From an uncultured Verrucomicrobiota bacterium (GTDB lineage Bacteria; Verrucomicrobiota; Verrucomicrobiia; Opitutales; Opitutaceae): a DNA stretch of 40,077 bases. Where the stretch lies: contig CAJCBL010000004.1 of the NCBI GenBank assembly GCA_903960515.1, positions 1 through 40,077 of the forward strand, given 5' to 3'. Positions within the stretch are counted from its first letter, which is position 1; every line of letters begins with the position of its first letter. The notes beneath the pieces were generated by a model that was not told where the DNA came from, made no database searches, and was given only the letters and a program-made list of their open reading frames with translations. Positions 11,386 through 39,262 of this stretch are shown here, piece by piece. The translations under genes and the position numbers were made by a program.

Positions 11386-11404
11386 TATTCTTCCTACCAT
11401 AACT

Positions 11405-12259: not shown

Positions 12260-12967
12260 ATGAACGTCGTCCTGATCTACTCTGGAGGCCTCGACAGCAC
12301 GGTCCTCCTCTATCACCTTCGAAATGAGGGACATGAGGTGAGAACACTTACTGTGGACTATGGCCAGCGCCATGTCCGTGAAATCGAGAGTGCTGGGCGA
12401 ATCGCCGAACGTCTCGGGTGCGAACATCGACTCGCGGACCTCCGTTCCATAACCTCGCTTCTCGGCGGCAGTAGTCTTACGTCGACCGAAGTTCAGGTTC
12501 CAGATGGGCACTACGCTGAGGAGACCATGAAAGCGACAGTCGTTCCAAATCGGAACATGATCATGCTGTCCGTGGCTGCCGGTTGGGCGATCGCGTCGAA
12601 GTGTGACGCCGTTGCCTTCGCGGCGCACAGCGGAGACCATGCAATTTACCCTGACTGTCGATCGGAGTTTGCCGATGCTCTCGCGGCGGCGATACGCTTG
12701 GCAGACTGGCATGAGGTCACACTGATCCGGCCTTTCGTGGCTCTGACCAAAGCTGAGATTGTGAAGAAGGGGGCGGCACTAGGAGTACAATTTGCGGACA
12801 CCTGGTCCTGCTACAAGGGGGGGGCGCTGCATTGTGGAAGGTGTGGTACGTGCATCGAGCGCCGGGAAGCCTTCCAATTGGCAGGAGTCGATGACCCAAC
12901 AGCCTATGCGCCCACGGCGCCAGGACTTGACGAACTCATTCTCAACAATTGGAGACTCCAGCCGTGA
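12260..12967 (+). CDS. queC: 7-cyano-7-deazaguanine synthase QueC
   Basis: Last step of preQ0 synthesis: converts 7-carboxy-7-deazaguanine with ATP and ammonia to preQ0. The 235-residue protein has the PP-loop ATP pyrophosphatase motif SGGLDST (residues 8-14), VPNRNM, a [10 protein letters not shown] substrate segment and the C-terminal zinc site [15 protein letters not shown] (C, then CxxCxxC). It is the first gene of a four-gene preQ0 operon and overlaps queD by four bases (GTGA). Upstream, TAGAAT at 12244-12249 could be a -10 element, but no good -35 is visible at normal spacing. No preQ1 riboswitch is seen. Being inside a Dpd island, it probably supplies preQ0 for DNA rather than only for tRNA queuosine. 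Confidence 0.95.
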
Positions 12968-13416
12968 TCACGTGCAGAAAGACTTACGCTGACATCCCCT
13001 TCGCCCACCGACAGAACCATCATGACGGCCATTGCGCCCTGATCCACGGTCACAATTGGGGGATTACGGTCACATTCGGATGTATCCGACCTGACGATAA
13101 CGGTTTTGTGATCGATTTCGGGAAGCTGAAATTCCTTCGGCAGTGGATTGAGAAAAACCTTGATCACGCCTGCCTTTTCAATGCCGACGATCCGATTCGC
13201 GAGCAATTGGTCGCCGCAGAGCCAACTGTTTGGAAATGCTATATAGTTGAGAACTGCTCATGTGAAGGGTTGGCTCAACACCTCTTCTCTATATTCGATC
13301 CAATGGTCCGAGAGCACAGTGGCGGCCGGGTTTGGGTTCTCTCCGTTGAGGTTCACGAAGACGCAAGAAACTCCGCCCTGTTCGCGCCTCCCTCTTCTTC
13401 CGTGACATTGGAATGA
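12964..13416 (+). CDS. queD: 6-carboxy-5,6,7,8-tetrahydropterin synthase QueD
   Basis: Converts dihydroneopterin triphosphate to 6-carboxytetrahydropterin in the second step of preQ0 synthesis. The 150-residue protein has the zinc/catalytic cluster in [20 protein letters not shown] (zinc histidines, the catalytic Cys of GHC, and HGH), followed by VIDFGKLK and LDHACLFN, typical of the QueD/PTPS family. GTG at 12964 is chosen: it overlaps the queC stop (GTGA) and has GGAG nine bases upstream; a TTG at 12949 is the alternative. The 3' end overlaps queE by ATGA. The usual C-terminal PTSENLA-like box appears as ENCSCEGLA, a small deviation. Confidence 0.92.
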
Positions 13417-14093
13417 CTAGCCTAGCCATCTACGAATCGTTTTTTTCGTGGCAGGGGGAAGGTTACCACATGGGGAAGGCTGCGTTCTTCATCCGAACAT
13501 TCGGTTGCCCGCTGCAATGTCCCTGGTGCGACTCTGCTGGCACTTGGCATCCGGACTGGGTGCCCGATAGTGTCGAGCGAATGCCTGTGGGCGAGTTGGC
13601 TGCCCGTGCCAAAATGACAAAGGCTGAATTCGTTGTGGTTACTGGTGGGGAACCGACCATTCACGATCTTCGTCCGCTCACCAAGGCCATTGCCCTCATC
13701 GGGTTGCCGACACATCTTGAAACTGCTGGGTCGTTTGAAATCCGAGGCGACTTTCAGTGGGTAACGGTGAGCCCAAAATGGGCAAAACCACCTCTGCCCG
13801 AGAACCTGCAAAGTGCAAACGAGATCAAACTCATCATTGAGAACGAACACTCGATTGACTGCTGGCTTCCTAAAATCGAGCCATACCTTTCTGGGCAGCC
13901 GGTGTGGCTTCATCCTGAGTGGTCGCAGCGCGCTAATCCCCGAGTCCTTTCCGCAATCTCCATTGCCGTTAAACAACGCGGATCGCCGTTCCGAGCAGGT
14001 TACCAATTGCATCGGATCTTCAACGTCGACGCCTTGGATACAGGGGCCCGCCCCACCGTACCTATCGGCGGCCACCAACGCCTAGGGTTCTGA
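13413..14093 (+). CDS. queE: 7-carboxy-7-deazaguanine synthase QueE
   Basis: Radical-SAM enzyme that rearranges 6-carboxytetrahydropterin to 7-carboxy-7-deazaguanine, the third step to preQ0. The 226-residue protein begins with the QueE-type N terminus ([20 protein letters not shown]) and has the cluster-binding motif [10 protein letters not shown], with spacing CxxxCxxC, near residues 32-39, then [13 protein letters not shown] with the GGEP motif of radical-SAM proteins. It starts on ATGA overlapping queD, and its stop TGA shares one base with the folE2 ATG. Translation of the four genes is thus coupled. The enzyme needs SAM; the island also carries a SAM synthetase, though in a separate module. 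Confidence 0.92.
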
Positions 14094-14962
14094 TGTTCGA
14101 AATAGATCGCAAGCTTGCTCCAGAACATCTCGACAGCGAGCACACTGACATTGATCCTCAATTTCTCCCCTTCCCTATGAAAGACGTTCAACGCAAAACG
14201 GATAGCCGCGGCATACACATCGATCAGGTTGGCGTAAGCGGATTGCGCTACCCTATTACGGTTCTCGACCGGGAGAACAAGGCCCAGCACACTGTCGGGC
14301 GGTTCAGTTTCTCGGTGGATTTGCCCCATAATTTCAAAGGCACCCACATGAGCCGTTTCGTCGAGGTGCTCAACAAACACCACGGCGAGATTACCCTGCG
14401 CACGATGCCTGAAATTCTCGTGGAGTTGCAGGCAAAGCTCGAATCGGAACGAACCCACATCGTTGTCGAATTCCCTTACTTCATCACTAAAGCTGCCCCC
14501 GTATCCGGATCGAAGGCGTTGGTCGACCTCAACTGCGCATTCATTGCCGAATCGAATGGCAAAGAGCAGGACTTTCTCCTGCGGGTCGAGGTTCCGGTTA
14601 CGAGCCTCTGCCCTTGCTCCAAAGAAATCAGCGATTACGGCGCTCACAACCAGCGCGGCTTTGTGACCATTACAGTACGGACCAAGAAGGACCGAGATGG
14701 ATGGCAGTTCGTGTGGATTGAGGAGTTAGTTGAAATCGCAGAGAAATCAGCTTCCGCCCCCATCTATGCACTTTTGAAACGGACTGATGAGCGCCATGTG
14801 ACCATGCAGGCATACGATAATCCCGTCTTTGTCGAAGACATCGTCCGGAATGCCGCGGGTTTCCTCAAGGAGGACAAGCGTATTGCTTGGTTCGAAGTTC
14901 GGGCGGTGAACCAGGAAAGCATCCATAACCACGAGGCATTCGCTGTCGTGCGAAGCCATTGA
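14093..14962 (+). CDS. folE2: GTP cyclohydrolase FolE2 (type IB)
   Basis: Catalyses the first step, GTP to dihydroneopterin triphosphate. The 289-residue protein has the FolE2 signature VPVTSLCPCSKEIS followed by DYGAHNQRG, plus the N-terminal segment PMKDVQRKTDSRGIHIDQVG and a C-terminal ESIHNHEAF. These distinguish it from QueF, another T-fold enzyme, and from the zinc-dependent FolE (GCH1) that dpd clusters can carry. It completes a self-contained GTP-to-preQ0 pathway with queC, queD and queE. Members of the IB family can use metals other than zinc, so supply could continue under zinc limitation. The 210 bp downstream, before dpdE, hold no gene. Confidence 0.93.
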   Translation: MFEIDRKLAPEHLDSEHTDIDPQFLPFPMKDVQRKTDSRGIHIDQVGVSGLRYPITVLDRENKAQHTVGRFSFSVDLPHNFKGTHMSRFVEVLNKHHGEITLRTMPEILVELQAKLESERTHIVVEFPYFITKAAPVSGSKALVDLNCAFIAESNGKEQDFLLRVEVPVTSLCPCSKEISDYGAHNQRGFVTITVRTKKDRDGWQFVWIEELVEIAEKSASAPIYALLKRTDERHVTMQAYDNPVFVEDIVRNAAGFLKEDKRIAWFEVRAVNQESIHNHEAFAVVRSH

Positions 14963-15172
14963 GTTGTCGCTCCAGCTTTTCCTCCGACAGGTTGGTTATA
15001 GTATCTAAAGTGAGCGCATCCGATCAGCCTGTACGCCCGTTGCCGATGGACAGAGACGGTCGTTTGCAGCCGGTCGGCAACCGGGCACTGCGTGCAGGCC
15101 TCAGGTTTTTATTGCGAGCATCTCCTGCATCAACTCCGGCGGTAGCGTTTTCGTGGTCGATCCCACCATCCA

Positions 15173-18100
15173 ATGAATAATCCTCACCTTGGCAAATTCG
15201 TCCGTTGTAAGGATAACGCCTGGGGCGTCGGCAAGTTGATCGATTCGAACCGCGAGAGCGTCCTGATCGAGTACTTCGATTCCCCGGTCGCGGCCGACCG
15301 CGAAACCATTCGAGTCCCGTGGACTCAAGTGGGCCGGGTGAAGCAACTCGGGGAGCAAATCCGGGTGTATTTCCACGACCGGACCGCAGGATTCTGGCGG
15401 ATCGGTCGCGTCCAATTGCACGTACCCGACGGAGAGATCTTCGTCCAGTTGCCCAACGGCGACCAAGCTAGGGTGGCGGAAAAAGACCTGTATGTGCGTT
15501 GGGACCGTCCTCTTCCGGAACCGTGGCAACATCTCGCAGGCCGTTTGACGGAAACGCCGTATTTTCACGAACGCCGTCGCCAGTTACTCGGCCATCTGGT
15601 GGGCCAGCGAGCTGCCACCGGCGGAATGGACGCCTTGCTCTCGGCCCCGGTTGAACTGGAACCTCACCAGATTGAGGTCGTGCGGCGAGTTCTCCGCGAT
15701 CCAGTCCAGCGCTATTTCCTGGCCGATGAAGTCGGTCTGGGTAAGACCATCGAAGCCGGTATTATCGCCCGTCAACACGTGCTCGATCGTCCCGCGGATC
15801 ATCGGGTGCTGGTGATCGTCCCGGCGAGCCTGGTTGATCAATGGAAATCAGAACTCCGCCTGCGTTGCTCGCTTGCGCCGGATTTCGGGCATCGCGTCGA
15901 AATTGTATCCTCTGACGCCTTCGACGTATGGACCGGGGAACAACCGACGCTGCTCATCATCGACGAAGCGCACCAGATCGCCGCTGGGTGGACCGACCTT
16001 CCGTCCAGTCCGCGCTATGAACGTTTCGCAAAAGTCCGGCGGCTTTCTGCTCCGACCGTATGCCCGAGCATTCTGTTGCTTTCGGCGACTCCAATACGCC
16101 GCAACGCGGCGGGCTTCCTGGCCTTGCTGCATCTGCTCGATCCGGCGGTGTACGACCTGAAGAATCGTAGCGGATTTGAAGATCGGGTGACGAAGCGACA
16201 GGAACTCGCAGATATTTTCGCGGCCTTCACCGAGGATCAGCAACCGTTCTTCCTGACCTCCACGGCGGAGCAAATTGCCACGATGTTTCCCGAGGACTCT
16301 CGCCTGAATGAAATGCTGAACGAACTGCGGGCGGGCATTGATCGGGACGAGCCGGCCGGCGATCGGGCATTGCGAGTTCGGGGGATCCGGGCGCACATGA
16401 GCGAAACCTATCGCCTGCATCGCCGGTTGCTGCGCAATCGCCGGAACGAGAATCTTCAGGGATTGCTCCCGGGTCGGCAGGGACTCGTGCGGTTGCCTTC
16501 TGAAAACGGTGCCATCGCCAACGCCGAGAAATTTGTGGAGGCGTGGCGCCGGCGCGCGGCGAACGAAGCGGCGGCCGGCTCCGCCGCATCGGTAACTGCA
16601 CTGGTTGACATCCACCAGTTGCTCCTCGAGGCGGCGTGGAGCGATATCGAGACGCTCGCGTCGTATTTTGCCGCCCGGCGGCCAGCGAAGAAAGGCCAGA
16701 CGCCTCAACGTCCAAACGCTCACTTGGACTCCGAGCGTTTGCGCCAACTCGGCGCCGTGCCGGCATTTCCCGGCGAACTGGAGATCATCGAGGAATTCGA
16801 AAGCGGTCTCCCGGTGTTTCGCGATCAGCAGCGGGCCCGATTGAAGGAACTGCTGGGGAATCTCCAGCAAATGCGGACACAAAAGCTGCGCGTGGTCTGC
16901 ATGACGGTAAGCCGTAACTTCGCCGATGAACTCTTCAAGTTGCTGACTGGTGCCTTGCCCGGCGTGGTGGCACGCCATGATCCGTCTGCACCCGGATGGC
17001 GGAAAACCTGGGATACGGTACCCGAGGCCATTCTCGTCTGCGATGCCCGGGCCGAGGAAGGCGTGAACCTCCAAGGCAAGCATTCGGCAATCCTGCATCT
17101 TGACCTGCCATTTGCGCCGAACCGCATTGAGCAGCGCATGGGGCGACTGGACCGCTACGGGGTCGGCACTCCGGTTGCCTCGTTCGTATTGGCTAGCGGG
17201 GAAGCGGCCTATCAAAACGAGTGGATCACCTGTCTCGACACAGGATGGAACGTATTCCGGCAGTCCATCGCTTCATTACAGTATCTGGTTGAGGACCTGA
17301 CCGGGAATGCGGCTACCAAACTTTTCGAAGAAGGCGTAACGGCGCTGCCGGCGTGGACGGAGGAGTTGAAGGCTTCCGGCGGCATCCGGGATCGGGAGCT
17401 GAAATCCATCCAGAATCAGGATGAATTGGACGCGTTTGATCTTCCCGCGGCCGAGTCCGGTGCGGACTGGCTGGCCCGGTTGGAGCATGCTGATAAGAAG
17501 GGCGACGATTTCCGGCACGCTTTCGATGAGTGGCTGGTGGAAGCCTTGCACTTCATCCGCGTAGGGGAACGCGAGCGCAACGACACCGTTGTTCGTTATC
17601 ATTTTCGCTATCCGGCAAAAGGTGAGCAATGCCTGATGAGCGCAGCGGACATCGCGCAGTGGATGGGAACGGCATTCGATCCATTGGCCCGGCACACAGA
17701 TTTCAGTCCGCCGTTGACAAGGCCGATGGCGTTCAATCGGCAAACGGCGCTCCACCGTGGCGCAAGTCTGGCCCGTCTGGGTCACCCCATGGTCGACGGA
17801 TTGCATGGGTACCTCGGATGTGATGATCGCGGGACCTGTTTCGCCTTTTGGAGGGAAAGCCCGGCGCTTAAAGCCTCGGAGGTTAAGGTATATTTCTGCT
17901 TCGATTTCGTGGTGGAGGCGGATCTCGCCAGCGAAGCGAGTGATCCTCAGAGCGCGGTGGTGAGAACTTTGCGCCGGCGAGCGGACGCGGCGCTGCCGCC
18001 CTTCGCCGAGACGGTCTGGATCGATCAGGAATTTTCGGTGCCTTCGCCCGAGGTCATCGCCGAACTAAGCAAACCCTTTGTCCGAAATCCTGACATCAAC

Positions 18101-18457
18101 ATCAATCCGTCCCGCTGGTCGCAGGCACTCGCCCGCTTAGGGGACAGCGTATGGGCCGAGTTGTGCGCGGAAGCGCGCGCTTCCGCCGAAAAGACGCTCC
18201 GTGGACTTCGCAATCTGGATGACATTGCCAAAGCGGCCCACGCAGAATTCGAAACAGCGACGGTCCTGACGAAGGAGCAGATGGAGAGCCGTGTGGCCGC
18301 CTTGGCGATGATTCCGGTCGAACGCGACCAGTTGAAACGCGAGCTGGTCGCCGAGAAGAAGCGCGTGGCGGAAATATCCGCCGGGTTGATCCGGCCCCGC
18401 CTGCGGTTGGATGCGGCAGGAGTGGTATTTCTGGCCGGCGGCCCCCTCGAGCCATGA
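15173..18457 (+). CDS. dpdE: DpdE, SNF2-family helicase
   Basis: A 1094-residue SNF2-type superfamily 2 helicase/translocase, assigned as DpdE by family and by position at the head of a dpd operon. An N-terminal SH3-like segment (residues 1-110) precedes the motor. Motif I is ADEVGLGKT (184-192), motif II is DEAH (264-267), motif III is LLSATPIRR. The C-terminal lobe has DARAEEGVNLQGKHS and IEQRMGRLDRYG (motifs V-VI). The C-terminal ~350 residues are family-specific. In S. Montevideo, dpdE is linked to the restriction-like phenotype. Its stop overlaps dpdF in ATGA. No clear ribosome site precedes the ATG; the 210-bp leader probably carries the operon promoter, but I could not define it. Confidence 0.88.
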   Translation: MNNPHLGKFVRCKDNAWGVGKLIDSNRESVLIEYFDSPVAADRETIRVPWTQVGRVKQLGEQIRVYFHDRTAGFWRIGRVQLHVPDGEIFVQLPNGDQARVAEKDLYVRWDRPLPEPWQHLAGRLTETPYFHERRRQLLGHLVGQRAATGGMDALLSAPVELEPHQIEVVRRVLRDPVQRYFLADEVGLGKTIEAGIIARQHVLDRPADHRVLVIVPASLVDQWKSELRLRCSLAPDFGHRVEIVSSDAFDVWTGEQPTLLIIDEAHQIAAGWTDLPSSPRYERFAKVRRLSAPTVCPSILLLSATPIRRNAAGFLALLHLLDPAVYDLKNRSGFEDRVTKRQELADIFAAFTEDQQPFFLTSTAEQIATMFPEDSRLNEMLNELRAGIDRDEPAGDRALRVRGIRAHMSETYRLHRRLLRNRRNENLQGLLPGRQGLVRLPSENGAIANAEKFVEAWRRRAANEAAAGSAASVTALVDIHQLLLEAAWSDIETLASYFAARRPAKKGQTPQRPNAHLDSERLRQLGAVPAFPGELEIIEEFESGLPVFRDQQRARLKELLGNLQQMRTQKLRVVCMTVSRNFADELFKLLTGALPGVVARHDPSAPGWRKTWDTVPEAILVCDARAEEGVNLQGKHSAILHLDLPFAPNRIEQRMGRLDRYGVGTPVASFVLASGEAAYQNEWITCLDTGWNVFRQSIASLQYLVEDLTGNAATKLFEEGVTALPAWTEELKASGGIRDRELKSIQNQDELDAFDLPAAESGADWLARLEHADKKGDDFRHAFDEWLVEALHFIRVGERERNDTVVRYHFRYPAKGEQCLMSAADIAQWMGTAFDPLARHTDFSPPLTRPMAFNRQTALHRGASLARLGHPMVDGLHGYLGCDDRGTCFAFWRESPALKASEVKVYFCFDFVVEADLASEASDPQSAVVRTLRRRADAALPPFAETVWIDQEFSVPSPEVIAELSKPFVRNPDININPSRWSQALARLGDSVWAELCAEARASAEKTLRGLRNLDDIAKAAHAEFETATVLTKEQMESRVAALAMIPVERDQLKRELVAEKKRVAEISAGLIRPRLRLDAAGVVFLAGGPLEP

Positions 18458-20976
18458 GCGAATTTGCGGACCTCAAGCGTTGGCTGCGAGCATGGCCCAA
18501 AGAGGCATTGCCGACGGTCGCCTACGAGAATTCCGTTTATGAACGGGTGCGTTTGGCGCTGCTGCGCGACCCTTCGCAGAATCTGGGTTGGGCGGACATT
18601 GCGGTGTTGATTCGGCAGGTCTTGCGCTGGGAAGCGACCAACCATCCGGGGATCCCGCAACTCACCGTGCCGGCCACGGCGCCTTGGCCGAGCAAATCCG
18701 AATGGCGGAAATGCGGCTGCCAGGCTTTCGGTGACGGCGCCACCTTCGAACTCGAGGCTGCGCCGTGGCAACCGAGTTGGCTGCCCGGTGAACCAGTCAG
18801 CGATGCCGAACAACGCCCGGTCCGTCGCACTAATCGACCGGTGCCGGCCGATCCCAACCTCGTCACCCGATTCGAGCATGGGGAGTACCTTTCGACGAAT
18901 CAGGCGGAAGCGGTTCGAGCGGTGATGTTGTCGCCGCCAGGGGCGATTCGCCTGGTCGTGCTTCCGACCGGAGCAGGCAAGAGCCTGGTGGGCATGGCGG
19001 CAGCGCTCCTCGGTACCGCTGAATCCGGCGGTACATCCGTAGTCGTTGTTCCGACCATCGCCCTCGCGTTCGACCAAGTCCGGCAAGCCCGCGCGTTGGT
19101 TTCCGGTGTGTCGATCGACGCCTGGCACTCTGGTCTCACGCAATTGGAGCGTAAGGCAATTTGGCAACGCTTGCGCGATGGCCAGCAGCGGGTCGTTTTC
19201 TGCGCGCCCGAGAGTATCGTCACGGGTCTCGCAGATAGTATCGAAGCATTGGCCAAATCGGGCCAATTGCGGGCGTTCATCGTGGACGAGGCCCACCTGA
19301 TCGGCCAGTGGGGTACTTCGTTTCGCCCGGAATTCCAGTCCATGAGCGCGCTATGGCGAAAGCTACGGCGCATTTGTCCGCCGGACCTTGCCTTCCGGAC
19401 GCTGCTGATGACCGCGACTTTGACGGAGGACAGTTTCGCCGACATCAACCACTTCTTCGGCGATCCGAATGATTTTGAGATTTTGGCGGCGGTCTACCTT
19501 AGACAGGAACCGGTCTATTCCCAAGTCCGCTGCGATTCACTTGATTCGCGCAATCGCGCCATCCTCGAAGCCTTGCGTCACGCGCCGCGTCCGGCCGTGC
19601 TCTATGTTACCCGGGTCGAGGATGCGAAAGCGTGGTACCAGCGCTGTCGTGAAGAATCATGGGGGAGGGTGGGCATTCTCCACGGCGAATGCGGAGCGAC
19701 GGAACGGGCGCGAACGCTCCAAGCCTGGAACGCCAACGAACTTGACCTCATGATCGGCACATCGGCCTTCGGCCTCGGCATGGACAAATCTGATGTGCGG
19801 GCCGTGATCCATGCTTGTGTGCCTGAGACGGTAGACCGGTTCTATCAGGAAGTCGGTCGCGGAGGTCGCGACGGCCACGCCTGTGCCTCGCTCCTGATTT
19901 GGACCGAGGCCGACGTCCACGATGCGGAGCTCTTGAGTTCACCGCAGATTGTCAGTTCGGAAATCGGATTCCAGCGCTGGCAAAGCATGTGGGCTTCCCG
20001 GATCGATGACGCTGAATCGCCTTACGTGAATCTCAACGCAAAGCGCCCCGGGGTGACTTGGGATGGAGAGCGCAACCGTGAGTGGAACCTCAAAACGCTT
20101 CTCCTGTTGGCGCGCTCCGGCGTGTTGGAGATCCAGAGCGGAGTTCGCCCGGGGTCTCCGCAGCGAGCGGGTGAATCAGTCCAGGACTATGAGGCGAGAC
20201 GCGAAGAGGAGCGCGCGACCTTGGAGGCGTACGTGCCGGTACGACTCCTTCAATCCAATCCAACGACCGCCCGTTCGTGGGATCAGCAGGTGGAGGTGAA
20301 GCGTGGGGCAAGCAAAGTCAGCGCGGCGCGGAATTGGTCCAGAATGGAGGACCTGGTGCGCAATCGGCGTCGGCGAGAAGATATCCTGCGGGAAGTGTAC
20401 GCAGTACCCGTGGCGGGCATTCATCACGTGGGGGAGGGCCCAGACGACGTAATGTTGAACCCGGCGCGCAAGGTGCAGAACGAGGTCAGCGCTAGGTTGG
20501 GGCAACTTCTGTCGGCTCGGGATAGCAAAGTGTTGTTCGTAACCTATGAGGCCAACACGCCCCGACGCGAATTGTTCACCCGACTGGTGGAGTCGCTCAA
20601 GCAGTTAGCCAAGAATGGTATCCGCGAGATTGCCTTGCCTCCCCAATGGCGTGCTGAGACTATGTGGCCGGGCGCGTTGCCGAATCCGCTCAAAGCAATG
20701 ACCAAGAATACCCCGGAAAACTTCCTAATTGTGCGAGGCATCGATGACCCGGACCCGGTATTCGAAGGCTTTTTGGGTGTGCCCAGGGTGTCCGTGTTGC
20801 CACCTGAGCATGCTCCCCGGTCGATTCCCGAACACCTCTACGCGTTGAATCGCCCGCTGCACCTCGTGATTGCGCCGGAGGAATGCGAGGATCGGTATCA
20901 CAAAGGACGTCGCATCGGCGATGGGTCGCCGGGTTCGATCCAATTGGGAACGCTGCTCAACGTTTTGCGCCAATGA
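18454..20976 (+). CDS. dpdF: DpdF, RecQ-like DEAH helicase
   Basis: An 840-residue ATP-dependent helicase with RecQ-like organisation: motif I PTGAGKS (171-177), motif II DEAH (278-281) in FIVDEAHLIGQWG, motif III LMTATLTE, then GTSAFGLGMDKSDVRAVIH and the arginine-finger motif QEVGRGGRDG in the second RecA domain. N-terminal residues 1-140 and the C-terminal ~300 residues are family-specific. A CGC pair near residue 87 may be part of a metal knuckle. Position between dpdE and dpdG with ATGA overlaps on both sides supports the DpdF call. It is expected to act on DNA in the restriction arm; the exact activity is not known. Confidence 0.87.
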   Translation: MSEFADLKRWLRAWPKEALPTVAYENSVYERVRLALLRDPSQNLGWADIAVLIRQVLRWEATNHPGIPQLTVPATAPWPSKSEWRKCGCQAFGDGATFELEAAPWQPSWLPGEPVSDAEQRPVRRTNRPVPADPNLVTRFEHGEYLSTNQAEAVRAVMLSPPGAIRLVVLPTGAGKSLVGMAAALLGTAESGGTSVVVVPTIALAFDQVRQARALVSGVSIDAWHSGLTQLERKAIWQRLRDGQQRVVFCAPESIVTGLADSIEALAKSGQLRAFIVDEAHLIGQWGTSFRPEFQSMSALWRKLRRICPPDLAFRTLLMTATLTEDSFADINHFFGDPNDFEILAAVYLRQEPVYSQVRCDSLDSRNRAILEALRHAPRPAVLYVTRVEDAKAWYQRCREESWGRVGILHGECGATERARTLQAWNANELDLMIGTSAFGLGMDKSDVRAVIHACVPETVDRFYQEVGRGGRDGHACASLLIWTEADVHDAELLSSPQIVSSEIGFQRWQSMWASRIDDAESPYVNLNAKRPGVTWDGERNREWNLKTLLLLARSGVLEIQSGVRPGSPQRAGESVQDYEARREEERATLEAYVPVRLLQSNPTTARSWDQQVEVKRGASKVSAARNWSRMEDLVRNRRRREDILREVYAVPVAGIHHVGEGPDDVMLNPARKVQNEVSARLGQLLSARDSKVLFVTYEANTPRRELFTRLVESLKQLAKNGIREIALPPQWRAETMWPGALPNPLKAMTKNTPENFLIVRGIDDPDPVFEGFLGVPRVSVLPPEHAPRSIPEHLYALNRPLHLVIAPEECEDRYHKGRRIGDGSPGSIQLGTLLNVLRQ

Positions 20977-25757: not shown

Positions 25758-25758
25758 G

Positions 25759-30879: not shown

Positions 30880-33134
30880 ACCTTGCGCGATGGTCAGAGG
30901 AGGACTTGCAAGCACTGCGGGCGTTTTACGACGCCGGCCAGGCATTCACCTTCGCGGACATCGAGGCAGGCAGTTCGGAATTGCTCCAAGATGTACAGGA
31001 CTGGTTGGTGACCAGTCCGCCGCCCAAGCGTTTCCCGGTTGTGCTGCCGGCCTGTCCGGTGTCGGTCCGGGAACCCTGTTGGTACGCCATAGCCTTTAGT
31101 TCCAGCCAAGCAGAACAACTCCGCCGCGAATTGATCGCCTTCGTCGGGATGGCCGGAACCGACTTTACCGGTCACCGGGTTGCATCCGACCCAACTGACC
31201 GAGTTTTGCAGGCGGCCGCGAACTGGGCTGGAGGCGAGTTCGTTTTCCGGTTCAGCGTCCATCTGCCGGCTTCGCGATCGGGCGTACGCACCGCGCTAGA
31301 TCGACTCCGCCAGATTTGGCGGATGCGGCCTGATCTCGGGGCCTCCTCATTTCGCACTTCCGATGCGCTGTTGCGCGAGTTCACCGCGGCATTGGCGGCT
31401 CAGGATGCTTCGGGTTCGGAACGGTGGCTGCAGGCCATTCGGCAATCGGGCCGTCTCAGCGTTGAGAACCTCCGTTTCCTGGAGATCGAACGACTCGGCT
31501 CGCTCGGATATTGGGATCAACTGGCGCTGCATCCCCAGTTGTCGCTGCTGCTCACGATCCGGCGTCCTCGCCGGATCAATGCGTGGTTGATCGAAGCGTT
31601 TTGGCGCTCCGAATTCGTCCGCTTTCTGGATTCGAATCAGCCGAGCGCGGCGCTCGCCCATATGCGGGATAACTTCCTGAAGAAGTACGAACCGCTTTTC
31701 AGGACTCGGGCGGGTTTGAACGGACCGAATGTGGTTCTGAGCTTTCTGCTGGTAGCGGCGGTCTCGGATCCGCCCCGCCACGAGCAAATACCGCAGTTGC
31801 TGGCCGCGTTGTCCCCAGGAACCCCTGAGCGCGCATTTGCGGAACGCATCGCAGCAACGGTGACGGCGCCGGCGGGCACAACTGAGGTCACGCTCGCCGA
31901 TGTAGAGCAACTCATCGACCGGGAGGACTACGACACCGCCTGGCCCCACCTGATTCGGCTCACTCCTTCAGTCGAAGTTGTCCAAATCTGTTTCATTTGC
32001 GCGACTGAACTTAACACGCCGGAAGCCGCTCGAACTGCCCTCGGAATCTTCGGTTCACTTTCGGCCGCGGATCAGGCCCGTATCCTTCGCCAGCGCCGCT
32101 ATCTGAATCAGCGCGATGACTTGGTGAATGCCAGCGCCGCTGCTAACCTGGTCGGTAGTTGGGAGCAATGGTTGGACAAGCTGCAGTCTGATCCTGCTTG
32201 GAGTCAGGCGGCGGAAATCGCTCGTGCCGGCGCCACCGATTGGTCGTGGGACGATTTTCAACACGACCCCGCCCGCATTATCCGTCTCGCGGCCCGTTTG
32301 CAGGAGGTCGCGCCCTCCAATACCCTCACGGTACGGTTTGTCCTGCCCAGCATTGCAGCCTTTTTCCTTCGCGCAGATGAACCGACGCCCGCGTTCATGC
32401 CGCTATGGGAGTCAGTGTTGTTCATGCTGGCAGTTGATCGCCAGTTTGGCGGCGCTGATTGGGCTCTCACCCAAGCGTTGACGGCTGCCATCCTGGAAAC
32501 CGGCCCAACGGCTGCGTCCTATGCGGACATGGTAGAGGGGCTCCGTACAATTTGGGACACCCGGGGGGAGCCTGCCCGATTAGACTGGGCGCTAGATCAC
32601 CTTGATGTGCTGGCTACTTCGCCGGTGCTCGATGCTGCTGCCCGTGAGTCGTTTTTCCACAGTGTGCGGGGCACGTTTGTTCACTCCGCCCGACGTATTG
32701 CGCCGGCTCAACGCGAACTCTTCCGCCTGCTTTGCGCTGACCTTGGTCACCAGGATGATTTCGCGGCGTTGCCGGCGCCCCCGCGCGTTGCCGGCGGCGC
32801 AGCAGATGAAGGGGGTATGCCCAGCCTGAGGGACAAGATCGTTGCCATATACACGCTTACTGCATCGGCGGCAGCGCGAGCCAAGGTCCTCATTGAGCAA
32901 CAATTTCCCGGAGTAGACGTTCGCCTCAACCACGAGCACGTGGGGAGTCCTCGACTCGCAACCTTGGCCCGCGAGGCAGACTATTTTCTGGTGGTGGCGA
33001 AGAGCGCGAAACACGCAGCGACGGATTTCCTGAAGGCCAATCGGCCTGGCCGCTCGGAGTTGATCTACCCCAGCGGTCGGGGGTCATCGAGCATTGTCAG
33101 CGCACTGCTCGAGACGGTTCGGGCGGGCCAGTGA
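30876..33134 (+). CDS. dpdD: DpdD
   Basis: A 752-residue protein, last gene of the plus-strand dpd operon, starting on ATGA shared with dpdJ. Most of it is helical without recognised motifs. The C-terminal ~95 residues (from LRDKIVAIYTLTASAAARAK) look like a small Rossmann-type domain resembling DUF2325, with ADYFLVVAKSAKHAATDFL and a final GRGSSSIVSAL. I assign DpdD because the other dpd proteins are accounted for and because dpdD belongs to the restriction-linked set. The gene ends 199 bp before the convergent dpdA-dpdB fusion; I see no clear terminator in that gap. Confidence 0.7.
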   Translation: MNLARWSEEDLQALRAFYDAGQAFTFADIEAGSSELLQDVQDWLVTSPPPKRFPVVLPACPVSVREPCWYAIAFSSSQAEQLRRELIAFVGMAGTDFTGHRVASDPTDRVLQAAANWAGGEFVFRFSVHLPASRSGVRTALDRLRQIWRMRPDLGASSFRTSDALLREFTAALAAQDASGSERWLQAIRQSGRLSVENLRFLEIERLGSLGYWDQLALHPQLSLLLTIRRPRRINAWLIEAFWRSEFVRFLDSNQPSAALAHMRDNFLKKYEPLFRTRAGLNGPNVVLSFLLVAAVSDPPRHEQIPQLLAALSPGTPERAFAERIAATVTAPAGTTEVTLADVEQLIDREDYDTAWPHLIRLTPSVEVVQICFICATELNTPEAARTALGIFGSLSAADQARILRQRRYLNQRDDLVNASAAANLVGSWEQWLDKLQSDPAWSQAAEIARAGATDWSWDDFQHDPARIIRLAARLQEVAPSNTLTVRFVLPSIAAFFLRADEPTPAFMPLWESVLFMLAVDRQFGGADWALTQALTAAILETGPTAASYADMVEGLRTIWDTRGEPARLDWALDHLDVLATSPVLDAAARESFFHSVRGTFVHSARRIAPAQRELFRLLCADLGHQDDFAALPAPPRVAGGAADEGGMPSLRDKIVAIYTLTASAAARAKVLIEQQFPGVDVRLNHEHVGSPRLATLAREADYFLVVAKSAKHAATDFLKANRPGRSELIYPSGRGSSSIVSALLETVRAGQ

Positions 33135-33333: not shown

Positions 33334-35712
33334 TTAGTTTTCATCGACCGATTGTTCGGATCCGCTCCCGTCCCCTGGCCCGCCCGCGTCATCTCGCTTC
33401 GGGTCGACTCTCCCGAGATATGCGCGGATCAAGTGGTTCGTCAGGTGATCGATGTCTCGATTGGTGTTCTGCAGGCCATCCCAAGGCAGAACCACGTTTT
33501 TCCCAAAGCGCCATATGCCCGAGGTCCATGCCGTGTATGGCGCGATCCTCTCCAACTCCTGCCTGAATTCATATATGTTCCAGTCTCGCCCAGCGCGTTT
33601 GATTCGAAATGCCACCGTGTCCATAAGGAAACCTAGGCTCACGATTCCCACTCCATGAGTGAGCCGACTCTCCCGTGGAGGCAGCAACCAAGCATCCGGA
33701 AACACATCCCGAGTCGCGCTCCAAAATGCGACAAGAAGGTTGGCTCGTTTCCGATCTGATTCAGGAAATTGGCCAAGCAAACCGTTGCTTGTGCTGTTTT
33801 CGATCATCCGCAATACCGACACATCTTTAATATTCGCGGTTTCGTGGTGGATAGATGTTGTTGTCCGGATTCTTTGGAAGAATGGGGACGCGGGATCCGA
33901 CTCCAGTATCCCGAGGATGCGATAGGCCGCCTGTCTGGTCCTCAAGCGAGGCGGCACCATGTCGCCAATAGACGGGAGCAACTCGTAGACGAGGCTCTTG
34001 GGCAATGGCCGGGTGTTGTTTATCAGAACGAATAGTTGCCGTTCGTCATTTTCTCCGGCAGATTCGATAGCGGTTATTGGCACCACGATGTCGGAACGTT
34101 GCGAGCGTCGGAGAGCTGCAAACCTTTGTTGCCCATCAACCACAAACCCGGCTTTATCCACATCATCAACAGGAACCTCGAGTGTCCCGGCAGCGACAGT
34201 TGCATTATCGTTACTATCCGGCACGAAATTAAGTGGTCGGTTGAATGCGATAATCAACGCATTGGCTAGAACCGAGCCCCGCCCATCAAGATACTCACGG
34301 ATTTCCTCGATGTGATTCTCGATCTCCGGTCGTTGATAACCAACGAGATCACCATTACTGCTCCTCGATACGCGCGAGACTGTTGCGAACTTGGCAATTT
34401 CTTTGCCGTTGACTGCAAATGTGTAGATCGAGCGCCCATCGGTTTGTTTGATTCGGATGCATGGAGTTTTCATAAACCTTCTTTCTCGCACAGATTTCAG
34501 ACGTTGATAGAATGCCCAAAGATTGTGAATGCCTCGGCGTTTGTGTCGGTTTAGTCCGCGATGCAGCAGAACCTCGACACCCAACTCCCGGCAGATCGAA
34601 CACGGACAGCGTTCCCACGGTCGATCCCGCAATGTCCGCTCGTATTCCGTCCCAAATGCAGTATCCCTTCCTAATAATTCATCATAGGCACGGACTGCCT
34701 CCAGCGCATCATTGACAGACTGGGTGCCTTCCCCTACGGCGCGTATCCGATCTAACGCTTGCCGCTCGGTTACCCGAGCTTGATCTCCATCCAGCACGCC
34801 GCTCTTTATCAGCCTACCTACCGCCGCTTCAGCGAGTCCCGTCACGCGGATCGCAGTGTACGATAGCCCTTCCGGTGTGATGTAGTTTCCACTATCATTT
34901 TTGAAGGACCGCAGAATGGGCGCGGTGCTGTCAAGGGACGAAACTCCCAACGCATGAAAATCATCCAGATGATCTGTGCGATTAAAGCCGAACAGGTGTA
35001 GCTTGGCTTCAGGAGGAATCGCGGTCCGAATTTCTGTCACCAAGCGCAAAATGTCCTCGGTCCGTGAGCCAACAATCCCGCCCAGGCCGATGTATTCGTA
35101 TCCATAACTGATCAAAAGTCTTGCCGCGTCGATCGCCGATTTCCGACTCCAGCACTGAATTGCGCCAAGCGGTGTAAAGGACACCCGCTTCTCCCGACAG
35201 AGTGCGATGAACTGCTTCGCTAATGAGAGCGTGACTGCAAAGCGCGTACTTACTCCTGCTGGTCTGAGGTTTCGCCTGTCCCAGTCTTCGTTCAGTCCCG
35301 AGATTATGTGGTCGGGGGCAACCCCGATCTGCACTTTGCAGGACTCGTAAAATGCGATCAGTTCCTCCGGTTCGACAGGGGGAACTTCTTCTCGAATATA
35401 TGAAAACGCACCACAATCCCCCATGATCGGGAACTCGCTCGGATCGCCCTTGAACCCCGGCTTTGGGTACCGGATATAGTCCCGAATCCCTTCTCGTAAG
35501 ACCGCGAATTTCTGGGATTGCGAGTATCGCCCCTGCGTCGCTCCGTCTGCAAATAGCGCCCTGGAAACTAGCACCCCGTCGTAGGGCGGCGTTTCAAGCA
35601 CCTCATGGGGCAATAGATCATAACGCCGGTTCCTACCAACGTTTGGTCGGTCGGACTGGAAGTTGTAGTCCGGATCTACGCTGTCGCAGTTGTCTGCAAA
35701 GAAGAATTTCAC
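33334..35712 (-). CDS. dpdA-dpdB: DpdA-DpdB fusion: DNA transglycosylase plus DGQQR protein
   Basis: A 792-residue in-frame fusion. Residues 1-~410 are a DpdA (TGT-fold) domain that should exchange guanine in DNA for preQ0. It has GDCGAFSY with Asp99, PDH with Asp134, GAIQCW with Gln186, SLDST with the expected nucleophile Asp261, and a zinc site Cys369, Cys371, Cys374, His396. Residues 414-792 are a DpdB module with DGQQR at 526-530, similar throughout to the separate DpdB next door. The start is GTG at 35712: it overlaps the dpdB stop (TAGTG) and gives an N terminus (KFFFADN) matching the other DpdA (QFFLPES); an ATG at 35841 would lie deep within dpdB. Met414, at 34473, is preceded by AGAAAGAAGG and could be an internal start for free DpdB. 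Confidence 0.88.
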   Translation of the reverse strand: MKFFFADNCDSVDPDYNFQSDRPNVGRNRRYDLLPHEVLETPPYDGVLVSRALFADGATQGRYSQSQKFAVLREGIRDYIRYPKPGFKGDPSEFPIMGDCGAFSYIREEVPPVEPEELIAFYESCKVQIGVAPDHIISGLNEDWDRRNLRPAGVSTRFAVTLSLAKQFIALCREKRVSFTPLGAIQCWSRKSAIDAARLLISYGYEYIGLGGIVGSRTEDILRLVTEIRTAIPPEAKLHLFGFNRTDHLDDFHALGVSSLDSTAPILRSFKNDSGNYITPEGLSYTAIRVTGLAEAAVGRLIKSGVLDGDQARVTERQALDRIRAVGEGTQSVNDALEAVRAYDELLGRDTAFGTEYERTLRDRPWERCPCSICRELGVEVLLHRGLNRHKRRGIHNLWAFYQRLKSVRERRFMKTPCIRIKQTDGRSIYTFAVNGKEIAKFATVSRVSRSSNGDLVGYQRPEIENHIEEIREYLDGRGSVLANALIIAFNRPLNFVPDSNDNATVAAGTLEVPVDDVDKAGFVVDGQQRFAALRRSQRSDIVVPITAIESAGENDERQLFVLINNTRPLPKSLVYELLPSIGDMVPPRLRTRQAAYRILGILESDPASPFFQRIRTTTSIHHETANIKDVSVLRMIENSTSNGLLGQFPESDRKRANLLVAFWSATRDVFPDAWLLPPRESRLTHGVGIVSLGFLMDTVAFRIKRAGRDWNIYEFRQELERIAPYTAWTSGIWRFGKNVVLPWDGLQNTNRDIDHLTNHLIRAYLGRVDPKRDDAGGPGDGSGSEQSVDEN

Positions 35713-36833
35713 TAGGGGGGCGGGAATTGTCCGGTATATACTGCGATCAAAGCACGCGTTAGGTCGCGGATATTGGTCGGATTGTTCTGCGGTGCATTCC
35801 AGGGTATCCCGGCCAGTATCTCCCAGTTGCCTTCCGTCCACGCACAGTGAGGCTTCAACCTTTCAAGATACCGGCGGATTTCGTGCGGTGTTTCTGGATC
35901 GCTTGGGTGCAGGTTTGCCATGATTCGGTCCATCAGAACGCCCATCGATCTAATGCCTACGCCATTCATCAGACGACTCTCTGAAGGTGACCGCCCCCAC
36001 GCCTCTGGGAAACATTCCTTCACCTCAGACCAAAATAGGTTCATCACCTTGCGGATCGCATCGATATCAGTCTCTCCACTTGCGCTGTTGCGATACTGGT
36101 AAAGGCATCCGTGGGGATCGTTCATACTTTTCCGAATCACGAGCAGCAGACTGGTGTCGGTGATAACCGCCGCCTTGTTCTCCTTTAGGTCAGTGGTTTC
36201 CCGAATGAGCAGCCCTTTGAATGGCGATTCGGGGTCTTGGTTGAGGATGTCACACAAAGCCGATGGGATTCGGTTCTTTGCGAAACTCTGTGGCAGGGTT
36301 GTGTTTACGGCCGGGAGTAATTCGTTGATCAACCCGATCGGCAGTGGTTTCACTTTGTTGACTAAAAGAAACTGAGTCCTCTGAACCTGGAAGTCGTCCG
36401 TAACGAACGCCGTCACTGGAACGAGAAGCCTTTGCTTTGACGAACGGGAGAGAGCTAGAGTCCGCTGCTGGCCGTCTACGATCCATGCCGCCCTCTTTCC
36501 TCCGATAGGGGTAGGAATGGCTAGAGTCCCAGCCTGGCATCCCTCGTTTCCCACTTTCGGACCGCGACTCTGCTTGAATCGGACGTCCGATGAGAGCGCG
36601 AGCAGAATGGCATTCGGAAACAGCACCTCGCCGGAATTCAAATAGTCAGTGATTTCGGCAACGTGCTGACGGACTTCGCCGCGTTGATAGCCGAGCAACT
36701 CGCCCCCGCCGTCTTTCTTGACCCTTGAGATTTCAGCGATTCCGAGAATCTCTTCACCGGTCAAAAAGAACGAGAAAACCGGGATGTCCGGAATCTGATT
36801 GATTTTGAGCGCACGAACTTCGATAGTATTCAT
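35712..36833 (-). CDS. dpdB: DpdB (separate copy), DGQQR protein
   Basis: A 373-residue protein of the DpdB family, ParB/DndB-like with a DGQxR motif (DGQQR at residues 120-124 in WIVDGQQRTLALSR). In S. Montevideo, DpdA and DpdB together are necessary and sufficient to put preQ0 in DNA, with DpdB thought to assist through ATP-related or DNA-binding activity. The ATG overlaps the stop of the upstream gene (ATGA), and its stop overlaps the GTG of the fusion gene. Its N terminus (FFLTGEEILGIAEISRV) and QRGEVRQHVAEITDYL align with the DpdB half of the fusion, but the two are clearly divergent, so this is not a recent tandem duplicate. Confidence 0.85.
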   Translation of the reverse strand: MNTIEVRALKINQIPDIPVFSFFLTGEEILGIAEISRVKKDGGGELLGYQRGEVRQHVAEITDYLNSGEVLFPNAILLALSSDVRFKQSRGPKVGNEGCQAGTLAIPTPIGGKRAAWIVDGQQRTLALSRSSKQRLLVPVTAFVTDDFQVQRTQFLLVNKVKPLPIGLINELLPAVNTTLPQSFAKNRIPSALCDILNQDPESPFKGLLIRETTDLKENKAAVITDTSLLLVIRKSMNDPHGCLYQYRNSASGETDIDAIRKVMNLFWSEVKECFPEAWGRSPSESRLMNGVGIRSMGVLMDRIMANLHPSDPETPHEIRRYLERLKPHCAWTEGNWEILAGIPWNAPQNNPTNIRDLTRALIAVYTGQFPPP

Positions 36834-37819
36834 TTTGGGTCGAACAGTCGTCCTTGATTGGATTCAACGAAGCGCCGGAACAGCGCTCCGAATCGCTTTT
36901 GCTCACAAGAGAGCCCTTTGGAATCCCTTAGATGGCGAAGCAGTGCCGAAGCTGAGGTACCGAACGTGGAAAAGTGTGCCTGAATATAGTGCATGACCTC
37001 TTCGTCGGTCATTGGCGCGACCGGTTTCCTCACTGGATCGGGGAGCCCTTCGCCTATCCTTTTCATTACTTCGAAGACCTTTCCGTTCCCCTCCGCCAAC
37101 GCGTCGGCGTGCGCGGTGATCAGCCAGTTGGCCAGTCTTGCGTTAAGGCTCACGTTAGTTTTGTCGAGATACGGATCCACAGCCTTGAACCTGTCATTGA
37201 ACGGAAGCACTCGCGCTCGCACTACTGGCGAGATAGCCGAAAGGTTCGCAAAGACGCCGGCACTGACAATGTAGATCCGCTTCCCGGCAGCTATGAGTTC
37301 CGCCACCTCACGCTCTACAGCTCCGAAATACTCGCGTGAGAGAATCAGCACGATCACCTCCTCCCCTCCGCATCCTCCGAATCGCTCTGCAAGATTGGTC
37401 CGACCCCATGCGTTGTTGAGCAACCGCCACCATTCCGCCTGATTCTCGCGGACTGAGTTCTCTCTAGGCCACTTGAGATTCAGCATGCTGTCGGGTCCCG
37501 CGGCAAAAGACGCCGCGTAGTTCGCAATTGGCGTTCGATCGTCGATAAGCCCGTATCCAGCTGAAAGCACAAGAAGCTCAGGCGAGTCGAACTTCTCCCG
37601 CGCTGACGCTACGCAATTCAACGATTCCCGCCAATGCGACCCTAGGTAGACGTCCGATGCCGGTGCGGTAGCTTCAGAGCCTCCAAGGCTTTCGACCCAC
37701 CGTTTCACGGCAAACTTCGGATCCATGCCGTTCTGGCATCTCAAGCACCGGTCCGGCTCAGTCGGACCGCGCTTTTGATTCGTGCATGTGGTGATAATTG
37801 TCAGTTTCCGAGCAGCCAT
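36830..37819 (-). CDS. dpdC: Probable DpdC (preQ0-in-DNA to amide conversion)
   Basis: A 329-residue protein beginning KLTIITTCTNQKRG with a nearby Cys pair (CLRC), then LVLSAGYGLIDD followed by ANYAASF. This order resembles the DUF6884/YaaA-like group. A C-terminal helical part includes MTDEEVMHYIQAHFSTFG, possibly a small winged-helix unit. In S. Montevideo, dpdC is needed after DpdA/DpdB to turn deoxy-preQ0 into dADG. Here it sits between dpdA and dpdB and overlaps dpdB by ATGA, the right place for a modification gene, and no other candidate exists in the window. The DpdC assignment is therefore by context plus a loose family resemblance. A different nucleotide-processing role is possible. 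Confidence 0.62.
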   Translation of the reverse strand: MAARKLTIITTCTNQKRGPTEPDRCLRCQNGMDPKFAVKRWVESLGGSEATAPASDVYLGSHWRESLNCVASAREKFDSPELLVLSAGYGLIDDRTPIANYAASFAAGPDSMLNLKWPRENSVRENQAEWWRLLNNAWGRTNLAERFGGCGGEEVIVLILSREYFGAVEREVAELIAAGKRIYIVSAGVFANLSAISPVVRARVLPFNDRFKAVDPYLDKTNVSLNARLANWLITAHADALAEGNGKVFEVMKRIGEGLPDPVRKPVAPMTDEEVMHYIQAHFSTFGTSASALLRHLRDSKGLSCEQKRFGALFRRFVESNQGRLFDPK

Positions 37820-37846
37820 TTCTGCTAGACTGTGCAGTTTCTCGAC

Positions 37847-37864
37847 ATTTTTAAAGCTAAAAAT
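37847..37864. repeat. AT-only palindrome upstream of dpdC
   Basis: ATTTTTA-AAGC-TAAAAAT, a perfect 7-bp inverted repeat with a 4-nt loop, lies 28 nt upstream of the dpdC start in the 153-nt gap after dpdA. It could be an operator, part of a promoter or a weak terminator. The surrounding gap is unusually AT-rich for this window. Confidence 0.4.
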
Positions 37865-37972
37865 TCACCAACGTGCGTAATTACTAAAATTCCATATTTC
37901 GCGCAGCTTGCAGTTAATCCGGAAACCACGAACGCAACTGCCGACAAAACGCCACCTATCGGCCTGGCAGGC

Positions 37973-39262
37973 CTACCCCTTGCGCTGAAGTTCAAATCGC
38001 TTCTGCTTGAAAGCCTCGTAGAAAACCCAGGTGTTGTGGAAACCGCGGCGGCGGTTGCGATCATTGCCCCGGAGGATCACTACCTCTACTCCTATCTCCC
38101 GGCAGATTGCACATGGGCAAGATTCCCACGGGCGGTCTCGCAGTGTTTCCTCGAAGTCACGGTAGGCCTTTCGACTTTCCCCAAACTCGTCGTCATAGGC
38201 GACCAACGCTTTCATCGCCTCCGTGAGATCAATTTCCCGGCGGGCGTAACTACGGACCCGCGCGAGGGCCTCTTGCTCGAGTCTACTCAATCGCTCTAGC
38301 ACTTTTTGGGCGGCAATCCGCTTCAATTCTTTTTCGGCGTCATCTTCGTCGCCATTTTCTAACCACGGTTTCAGAATTTTCCGAACCTTGGGAGACCGAT
38401 GCTGCCCCCCTGCAGTCGATGGAATTCGAACTGCGGTGTAGTTCTTTGCCGGCGAGTGGTAGTTCTCCTTGTCGCTCTTGAACGCCTGAAAAATTGTCGA
38501 TGCACTGTCGCACGAAACGACGCCTGCGGCCAGATAATCATCCATCAGCGAGAGTCGTGCGACTCCAAATAGGTGGAACTGCGCAATCCTGTGCAGTCCA
38601 CCGCGCACCAACTCCGCCAACACCAACCTGATATCCTTGTCCGATGCTCGAGCTAGCCCCCCAATGGCGATGTACCTGTACCCGATCGCAGCAAGTCGCT
38701 CGACGCAGGAACGATAGGACTTCGGGCTCCATCCCTGAGCCGCTCCGATCAACTCGTACCGGTACCCGCCCCGTTGATGGATCGCCCACATTTCCTCCGC
38801 GCCAGAGATCGTGATATCCATTCGGCGCCTCGCCTCAACTGGAACCTCGCGCGCCAGAAGCGCTGATTCAGAATCGAAGTCGGGGTCAAACTCGACAATT
38901 ACGTGGTCAAGAGTCACGCCATAGTTGACTCCGATCTTGGCGTAGAATTCACAGGTATCGACCGGCGAATAGGGCGGTCGTTCCAAACCAACATACTGGA
39001 ACGCGCCTGAGTCGCTGATAACCGGTATAGATATCGGGATTGAGAGGAATTGATGAATTCCGCCAACATTCGCGATCTCGGCCAGCTTTTTTTCATCTAC
39101 GGTCGAACGACTTACAAGCACGCCATCGCAGGGTAATCCGCCAAGCAATTGATGCGCGTACACGTCGTGTCTGGTAGATTTCCCGCACCCATATCGGTCC
39201 GCAAGAAAGTCAAAATGCCGATCGACCAGGTCGTCTGACTCAGGGAGAAAGAATTGCATCAC
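37973..39262 (-). CDS. dpdA: DpdA (separate copy), DNA guanine transglycosylase
   Basis: A 429-residue TGT-family protein of the DpdA type, predicted to cleave guanine from DNA and insert preQ0. Key residues are present: SDSGAFQY with Asp84, LDH with Asp119, GAAQGW with Gln176, CDS with the expected nucleophile Asp252, and zinc ligands Cys382, Cys384, Cys387 and His409. Gene order and the short zinc-to-end tail separate it from tRNA TGT. ATG 39262 is followed by a second ATG at 39259, and a GAGAGAG stretch lies upstream. It is the first gene of the minus-strand modification operon, and a TATAAT box precedes it. It resembles the DpdA half of the fusion in layout but is strongly divergent. Confidence 0.88.
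   Translation of the reverse strand: MMQFFLPESDDLVDRHFDFLADRYGCGKSTRHDVYAHQLLGGLPCDGVLVSRSTVDEKKLAEIANVGGIHQFLSIPISIPVISDSGAFQYVGLERPPYSPVDTCEFYAKIGVNYGVTLDHVIVEFDPDFDSESALLAREVPVEARRRMDITISGAEEMWAIHQRGGYRYELIGAAQGWSPKSYRSCVERLAAIGYRYIAIGGLARASDKDIRLVLAELVRGGLHRIAQFHLFGVARLSLMDDYLAAGVVSCDSASTIFQAFKSDKENYHSPAKNYTAVRIPSTAGGQHRSPKVRKILKPWLENGDEDDAEKELKRIAAQKVLERLSRLEQEALARVRSYARREIDLTEAMKALVAYDDEFGESRKAYRDFEETLRDRPWESCPCAICREIGVEVVILRGNDRNRRRGFHNTWVFYEAFKQKRFELQRKG

Follow-up and report, generated by a model that had tools for sequence, protein, structure and literature searches.

Dpd systems are restriction-modification systems based on 7-deazapurines in DNA. DpdA, together with the ATPase DpdB, inserts 7-cyano-7-deazaguanine (preQ0) into DNA, DpdC turns the inserted base into its amide, and DpdD to DpdK act on unmarked DNA. 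We analyzed a 40,077-base stretch of an uncultured bacterium of the Opitutaceae (Verrucomicrobiota; GenBank assembly GCA_903960515.1, contig CAJCBL010000004.1), hereafter the window, which is the entire contig C4 of a host assembly of 5.5 Mb in 379 contigs. By its gene content, the locus at positions 12,260 to 39,262 is a complete Dpd island, comprising four preQ0 genes and the Dpd restriction genes, followed by a convergent modification operon. We read it as a Dpd variant with two DpdA lineages, whose modification module appears to have been exchanged under a conserved restriction module, and we hold this reading, drawn from sequence comparison, at a probability of about 0.8.

All eleven Dpd families were matched by profile searches of the window, DpdI weakly. 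The NCBIfam cut-offs were exceeded by DpdE, F, G, H, J, K, D, A and B, and DpdC, for which the search of the window proteins gave no NCBIfam match, was found by PADLOC only. As every named gene is matched by profile where stated, the coordinates are confirmed; the gene set lies far beyond chance. The plus strand carries, in order, queC, queD, queE, folE2, dpdE-F-G-H-I, dpdJ=dpdK and dpdD, where the equals sign marks a fusion, and the minus strand is transcribed in the order dpdA1, dpdC, dpdB' and dpdA2=dpdB. An earlier note on this DNA had placed dpdA, dpdB and dpdC in a convergent operon and assigned all eleven dpd functions. The convergent layout holds and every family is present, but that note had overlooked that DpdA and DpdB each occur twice and that a DpdA=DpdB fusion exists, and the set is not one of eleven single functions, since it includes two non-orthologous DpdA proteins and two DpdB paralogues. 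The modification genes are the following:

33,334 to 35,712, minus strand: dpdA2=dpdB fusion, 792 residues, matching NF041059 (7e-127) and NF041060 (7e-114) in one open reading frame (ORF)
35,712 to 36,833, minus strand: dpdB', DpdB of the upstream-type subfamily (NF041060, 1e-123; upstream clade in the tree)
36,830 to 37,819, minus strand: dpdC, predicted preQ0-nitrile hydrolase giving the amide, dADG (PADLOC DpdC, 4e-41)
37,973 to 39,262, minus strand: dpdA1, second predicted DNA transglycosylase, of the other DpdA clade (NF041059, 2e-114)

The comparison sample consisted of 80 Dpd loci, drawn from GTDB genomes by means of an alignment of DpdA. G318, a single-contig genome of the host's family, carries a Dpd island (loci L143-L145) that resembles that of the window in its restriction genes (74-87% identical), its DpdJ=DpdK fusion and the same set of preQ0 genes (60-78%). 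It differs from the window in its modification operon, which runs C-B'-A-B after dpdD in the same direction and contains one unfused DpdA, and identities for DpdA2, DpdB' and DpdB are 35-44%. DNA similarity to G318 extends from 15,169 to 33,027 at 75% and ends at the end of dpdD, with two short matching stretches beyond this point. The island of L033/G424 (uncultured Verrucomicrobiales metagenome-assembled genome (MAG), CAJXQE010000070.1) has the A1-C-B'-A2=B operon and the DpdJ=DpdK fusion in common with the window; unlike in the window, its modification operon is not convergent with the neighboring dpdD, and it holds an extra DGQHR protein. Its modification genes are 46-61% and its restriction genes 32-58% identical to those of the window.

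Across the sampled islands, restriction identities of at least 65% were found in nine gene comparisons. Five of these are between the window and G318, whose DpdA proteins are 35% identical, and the other four come from four other pairs, with DpdA at 81-99%. Judged by these identities, the modification module (dpdA1-dpdC-dpdB'-dpdA2=dpdB) and the restriction module (dpdE-K, D) differ in ancestry, and the simplest reading is that the modification module was exchanged, with restriction and preQ0 genes being retained.

Several points weigh against this reading. The host assignment rests on binning, because the window is a whole contig within the 379-contig assembly, and the estimated contamination is 2.2%; the close match to G318 fits the assignment. 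GC content is lower in the modification genes than in the restriction genes of both the window and G318, and so gives no direction for the exchange. The full-length match of DpdI to NF041066 scores 61.6 bits, under a cut-off of 150; the gene sits between dpdH and dpdJ, and its same-position counterpart in G318 is 78% identical. Finally, DpdA1 could instead be a dimer partner or redundant, two possibilities that are weighed below.

Two DpdA lineages and two DpdB subfamilies

Both DpdAs of the window match NF041059 over its full length and above its cut-off. DpdA1 and DpdA2 are 33% identical, and DpdB' and the DpdB of the fusion 36%. At these identities neither pair consists of recent duplicates, and with the members of each pair in separate clades a recent tandem duplication of dpdA or dpdB is rejected. 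In a tree of 92 DpdAs, window DpdA1 and the first DpdA of L033 form a clade (support 100/100) that is sister to the long DpdAs encoded on plasmids of Scytonema, Nostoc and Paenibacillus (100/99). DpdA2 belongs to a separate clade formed by the window, L033 and L034, a Nitrospinaceae MAG (100/98).

The long DpdAs of the sister clade carry an N-terminal DpdC-like domain, on which the DpdC profile scores 37-50 bits within the first 110-155 residues (four of four examined). Those of L011, L030, L031 and L128 (689-714 residues) are DpdC=DpdA fusions, and one of the four proteins examined comes from a genome that belongs to the same order as that of L033. A further DpdC=DpdA island is found in G981, whose protein lies outside the tree of 92. 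Although the DpdA domain of the Nostoc, Scytonema and Paenibacillus plasmid islands forms the sister clade of window DpdA1, these islands and that of G981 are unlike the window in having the DpdC-like domain fused at the N terminus and, in the parts of them that were read, no clear DpdB. The islands of L011, L031 and G981 (Nostoc, Paenibacillus and G981) also encode a second, short protein of about 310-350 residues that resembles tRNA-guanine transglycosylase (TGT). The DpdC of the window clusters with the DpdCs of L033 and L034, apart from the fused DpdC domains, and dpdA1 therefore looks like an addition ahead of a normal C-B'-A=B operon.

Three Asp residues, the CxCxxC motif and a His, at positions that correspond to the catalytic Asp, nucleophile Asp and zinc ligands in tRNA-TGT, are invariant in all 92 DpdAs, both window copies included. 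The predicted nucleophiles are D252 in DpdA1 and D261 in DpdA2. The DpdA1 proteins of the window and L033 share a change beside the nucleophile, from FDSTSP to CDSAST, and changes at a few other otherwise invariant positions. The AlphaFold2 model of DpdA1 (predicted local distance difference test, pLDDT, 90) has as its best match in the PDB 7UI4, the solved structure of the DNA preQ0 insertase DpdA, with a template modeling (TM) score of 0.83 normalized by query. In the model of DpdA2=DpdB (pLDDT 91), the DpdA part also matches 7UI4 best (TM 0.91, by target). Given the conserved catalytic and zinc residues and the match of both models to 7UI4, DpdA1 and DpdA2 are both predicted to be active enzymes.

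Besides the window, the A1-C-B'-A2=B arrangement was found in one of the 80 GTDB loci (L033), in a sample that was drawn using DpdA2-like patterns and may under-represent DpdA1. Within the host's family, a true DpdA is present in 2 of 252 genomes, and two DpdAs in the host only; genomes with DpdA number 2 of 387 in a phylum sample and 3 of 386 in the order to which the L033 genome belongs.

DpdBs were labeled by their position relative to dpdA. In a tree of 60 DpdBs, those upstream and those downstream of dpdA are split on one fully supported branch (28 versus 32), and 67 of the 80 sampled islands carry two DpdBs. On the evidence of this tree, upstream and downstream DpdBs are two ancient subfamilies of paralogues. 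The literature covered, which does not extend to the founding Dpd papers, yielded no mention of this split, and its novelty is not established. A survey of over 2,000 unique Dpd islands, with complete operons in more than half, reported many dpd genes in extra copies, dpdB foremost (PMC11888242). As most sampled islands carry two DpdBs, the strict DpdB split and the two DpdA lineages suggest that the eleven-gene Dpd list may understate the usual parts list. A distant DGQHR protein, scoring 28 bits against the DpdB profile, lies at positions 3,948 to 5,462 of L033, beside the double-DpdA operon.

The Dpd system of the Salmonella enterica serovar Montevideo type (dpdA-K; 7UI4) is like that of the window in having all eleven families and separate modification and restriction operons, and the DpdA part of both window models fits 7UI4. 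The enteric-type islands sampled have one DpdA and separate dpdJ and dpdK, and those of Cedecea, Tolumonas and an Enterobacter plasmid carry the downstream-type DpdB alone. The window, in contrast, has two DpdAs, two DpdBs and preQ0 genes of its own, and shows both the A=B and the J=K fusion.

Proposed mechanism and likely role of DpdA1

In the mechanism that we propose, FolE2, QueD, QueE and QueC would convert GTP to preQ0, and DpdA2=DpdB with DpdB' would replace guanine bases of the DNA by preQ0 in an ATP-dependent reaction. DpdC would hydrolyze the nitrile of the inserted preQ0 to the amide, giving dADG. DNA without the mark would then be attacked by DpdE to DpdK and DpdD, with the DpdK nuclease borne on the DpdJ helicase. 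The DpdA2=DpdB fusion would fix one DpdA to one DpdB, and DpdJ=DpdK would tie helicase to nuclease. DpdA1 would act as a second transglycosylase from the other DpdA lineage, marking a second set of sites, and its most likely effect is to widen or change the set of marked sites.

A possible, though unlikely, alternative is that DpdA1 serves as a partner subunit of DpdA2=DpdB in a heterodimer like the eukaryotic TGT, with one mark and one set of sites. TGT-family enzymes work as dimers, DpdA1 and DpdA2 co-occur in both islands that have DpdA1, and the change beside the nucleophile is specific to the DpdA1 lineage, all of which would suit such a partner. However, a dimer partner often loses its catalytic or zinc residues, whereas all the residues that align with the catalytic and nucleophile Asp and the zinc ligands of TGT are kept in both DpdAs. 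Moreover, the nearest relatives of DpdA1 are single DpdA domains fused to DpdC, with no DpdB detected in the stretches read.

It is likewise doubtful that the locus is a Dpd island of the ordinary kind, in which the extra dpdA is redundant and nothing is functionally new. Extra copies of dpd genes are common (PMC11888242), but the extra DpdA is, at 33% identity and in a separate clade, no recent duplicate, and a second, distant genome (L033) has retained it beside the same neighbors and with its residues intact.

Less probable still is a division of labor in which DpdA1 and DpdC form one unit yielding dADG and DpdA2=DpdB with DpdB' yields deoxy-preQ0 (dPreQ0), both bases being present in host DNA. 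The position of dpdA1 directly upstream of dpdC in both islands and the fused DpdC-like domain in its sister clade (cyanobacteria, Paenibacillus) speak for such a unit. The window DpdC, however, groups with those of L033 and L034 rather than with the fused domains, and the L034 contig is without DpdA1, which together argue that DpdC belongs to the B'-A=B operon. DpdC as an unfused partner of DpdA1 is thus unsupported by its grouping.

As to two DpdA lineages that may mark separate sites, we know of no settled account of how Dpd systems choose guanines or of how the large restriction complex recognizes its DNA. We tentatively suggest, as an idea that may well prove wrong, that target choice lies with a modification module that can be exchanged. 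DpdA1 and DpdA2=DpdB/DpdB' would mark different sequence contexts, and one restriction module would serve different modification modules, either by reading the mark itself or by taking its specificity from the resident DpdA/DpdB complex. The window and G318 offer a natural experiment in this respect, as these two members of one family combine much the same restriction machinery (74-87% identical) with modification modules that are only distantly related to each other. Their comparison would show whether DpdA/DpdB or the restriction proteins determine specificity.

The DpdA2=DpdB fusion and its operon

In the fusion protein, DpdA occupies about residues 1-409 and is joined in frame to a downstream-type DpdB. 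The junction (...AGGTTTATGAAAACT...) holds ATGA, the usual dpdA-dpdB overlap, through which the DpdA frame reads. Orthologous DpdA=DpdB fusions are present in L033 and L034, so that the fusion is found in three genomes, and the genes are separate in all the other 80 dpdA-dpdB pairs examined. A search of viral contigs gave no relatives of the fusion and three relatives of DpdA1, at 30-38% identity.

That the fusion or the discordance between modules is an artefact of assembly or binning is very improbable: the host assembly is in 379 contigs, of which the window is one entire contig, and the ATGA lies one base out of frame, where a single-base error could create such a read-through, but the three fusions align across the junction without gaps, the boundary between dpdD and the modification genes falls within a single contig, and L033 shows the A1-C-B'-A2=B order again. 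A sequencing or assembly error as the source of the fusion is thus made unlikely by two orthologous, gap-free fusions.

dpdC and dpdB' overlap by 4 bases, and the last base of the dpdB' TAG stop codon is the first of the GTG start of the fusion; between dpdA1 and the next gene, dpdC, there is a gap of 153 bases. Since neighboring genes overlap by few bases, the modification genes, apart from the gap after dpdA1, probably form one operon.

preQ0 supply, restriction genes and neighboring genes

The remaining genes of the island, all on the plus strand, are as follows:

12,260 to 12,967, plus strand: queC, 7-cyano-7-deazaguanine (preQ0) synthase (PF06508, 5e-64; TIGR00364 above cut-off)
12,949 to 13,416, plus strand: queD, 6-carboxytetrahydropterin synthase (PF01242, 3e-22; TIGR03367, 59 bits, below cut-off)
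13,413 to 14,093, plus strand: queE, radical S-adenosylmethionine (SAM) 7-carboxy-7-deazaguanine synthase (TIGR04322, 1e-28, below cut-off; CPLQCPWC)
14,093 to 14,962, plus strand: folE2, GTP cyclohydrolase (PF02649, 4e-94; NF010200 above cut-off)
15,173 to 18,457, plus strand: dpdE, SNF2-like helicase (NF041062, 2e-277)
18,454 to 20,976, plus strand: dpdF, RecQ-like helicase (NF041063, 6e-236)
20,973 to 21,926, plus strand: dpdG, from its likely start, the ORF reaching back to 20,883 (NF041064, 2e-68)
21,928 to 25,023, plus strand: dpdH, P-loop ATPase, from its likely start, the ORF reaching back to 21,814 (NF041065, 6e-211; GGSGVGKS)
25,020 to 25,757, plus strand: dpdI, weak match (NF041066, 1e-16)
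25,726 to 30,879, plus strand: dpdJ=dpdK fusion, 1717 residues, matching NF041067 (E=0) and NF041068 (2e-48) in one ORF
30,876 to 33,134, plus strand: dpdD (NF041061, 1e-151)

The pathway to preQ0 leads from GTP to dihydroneopterin triphosphate (FolE2), carboxytetrahydropterin (QueD), carboxydeazaguanine (QueE) and preQ0 (QueC). The island holds the complete set, each enzyme with its catalytic motifs. QueD and QueE fall under the NCBIfam equivalog cut-offs and over those of Pfam, the radical-SAM Pfam match of QueE being weak (2e-7) and above the cut-off of that model. Read directly in the translations, the C-x3-HGHNW and LDH motifs of QueD, the CxxxCxxC motif of QueE and the SGGLDS and CxxCxxC motifs of QueC are all intact. 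The assignment of these four genes to preQ0 synthesis in the earlier note is borne out, as are its placing of dpdE to dpdK functions with dpdD and its remark that K is present as a domain, which lies within the DpdJ ORF. The profile search for each Dpd family that it had proposed found them all, DpdI weakly.

The earlier note had also expected the island to work in a host without its own queuosine pathway. The present host has queuosine-type genes of its own, with a second QueC on C301 (48% identical to the island QueC), QueF on C82 and a normal tRNA-TGT on C158, so that this genome does not speak for the expectation; from its gene content, it is plausible that the island could function in a host without them. 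Within about 10 kb of the sampled Dpd loci, queC was found in 59 of 80, detectable queE in 26 and folE2 in 9, all of them minimum counts, since the queries were single sequences and contigs break off early. The published survey reports QueD in 78% of islands, and QueC and QueE in more than 20% (PMC11888242). preQ0 genes beside dpd genes, along with a full dpd set, are thus common and ordinary for Dpd islands.

Among the restriction genes, the NF041064 profile starts at residue 31 of the longest dpdG ORF. DpdJ=DpdK consists of a YprA-like helicase (about residues 1-1535) and a PLD-like nuclease domain (about 1545-1716, within the last 172 residues). This fusion is present in all four islands checked, namely the window, G318, G424 and L055 (the window and loci L137, L138 and L139), and of the sampled loci 22 have both dpdJ and dpdK, which are separate genes in 21 of these.

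No tRNA and no Rfam element were detected within the window. Near the left contig end, a tyrosine integrase (PF00589) at 108-1634 suggests a mobile island. A second S-adenosylmethionine synthetase gene (metK, 4078-5193), whose product is 54% identical to the host copy on C65, shares the contig with the radical-SAM QueE of the island. Next, at 5222-8530, come genes for a MoxR-like AAA ATPase, for a small unknown protein and for a protein of 470 residues that contains HEFLH and a stretch resembling VWA; beyond weak AAA hits, these gave no match to a PADLOC system. Imperfect direct repeats at 3036-3269 and 9823-10,057 (165 and 67 bases, 81-87%, 6.8 kb apart) bracket metK and the MoxR-like ATPase and VWA/HExxH genes, as if these were a separate insert. 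Immediately upstream of queC, at 10,327-11,962, lie a WYL-domain regulator and an unknown protein of 185 residues, which possibly regulate the island.

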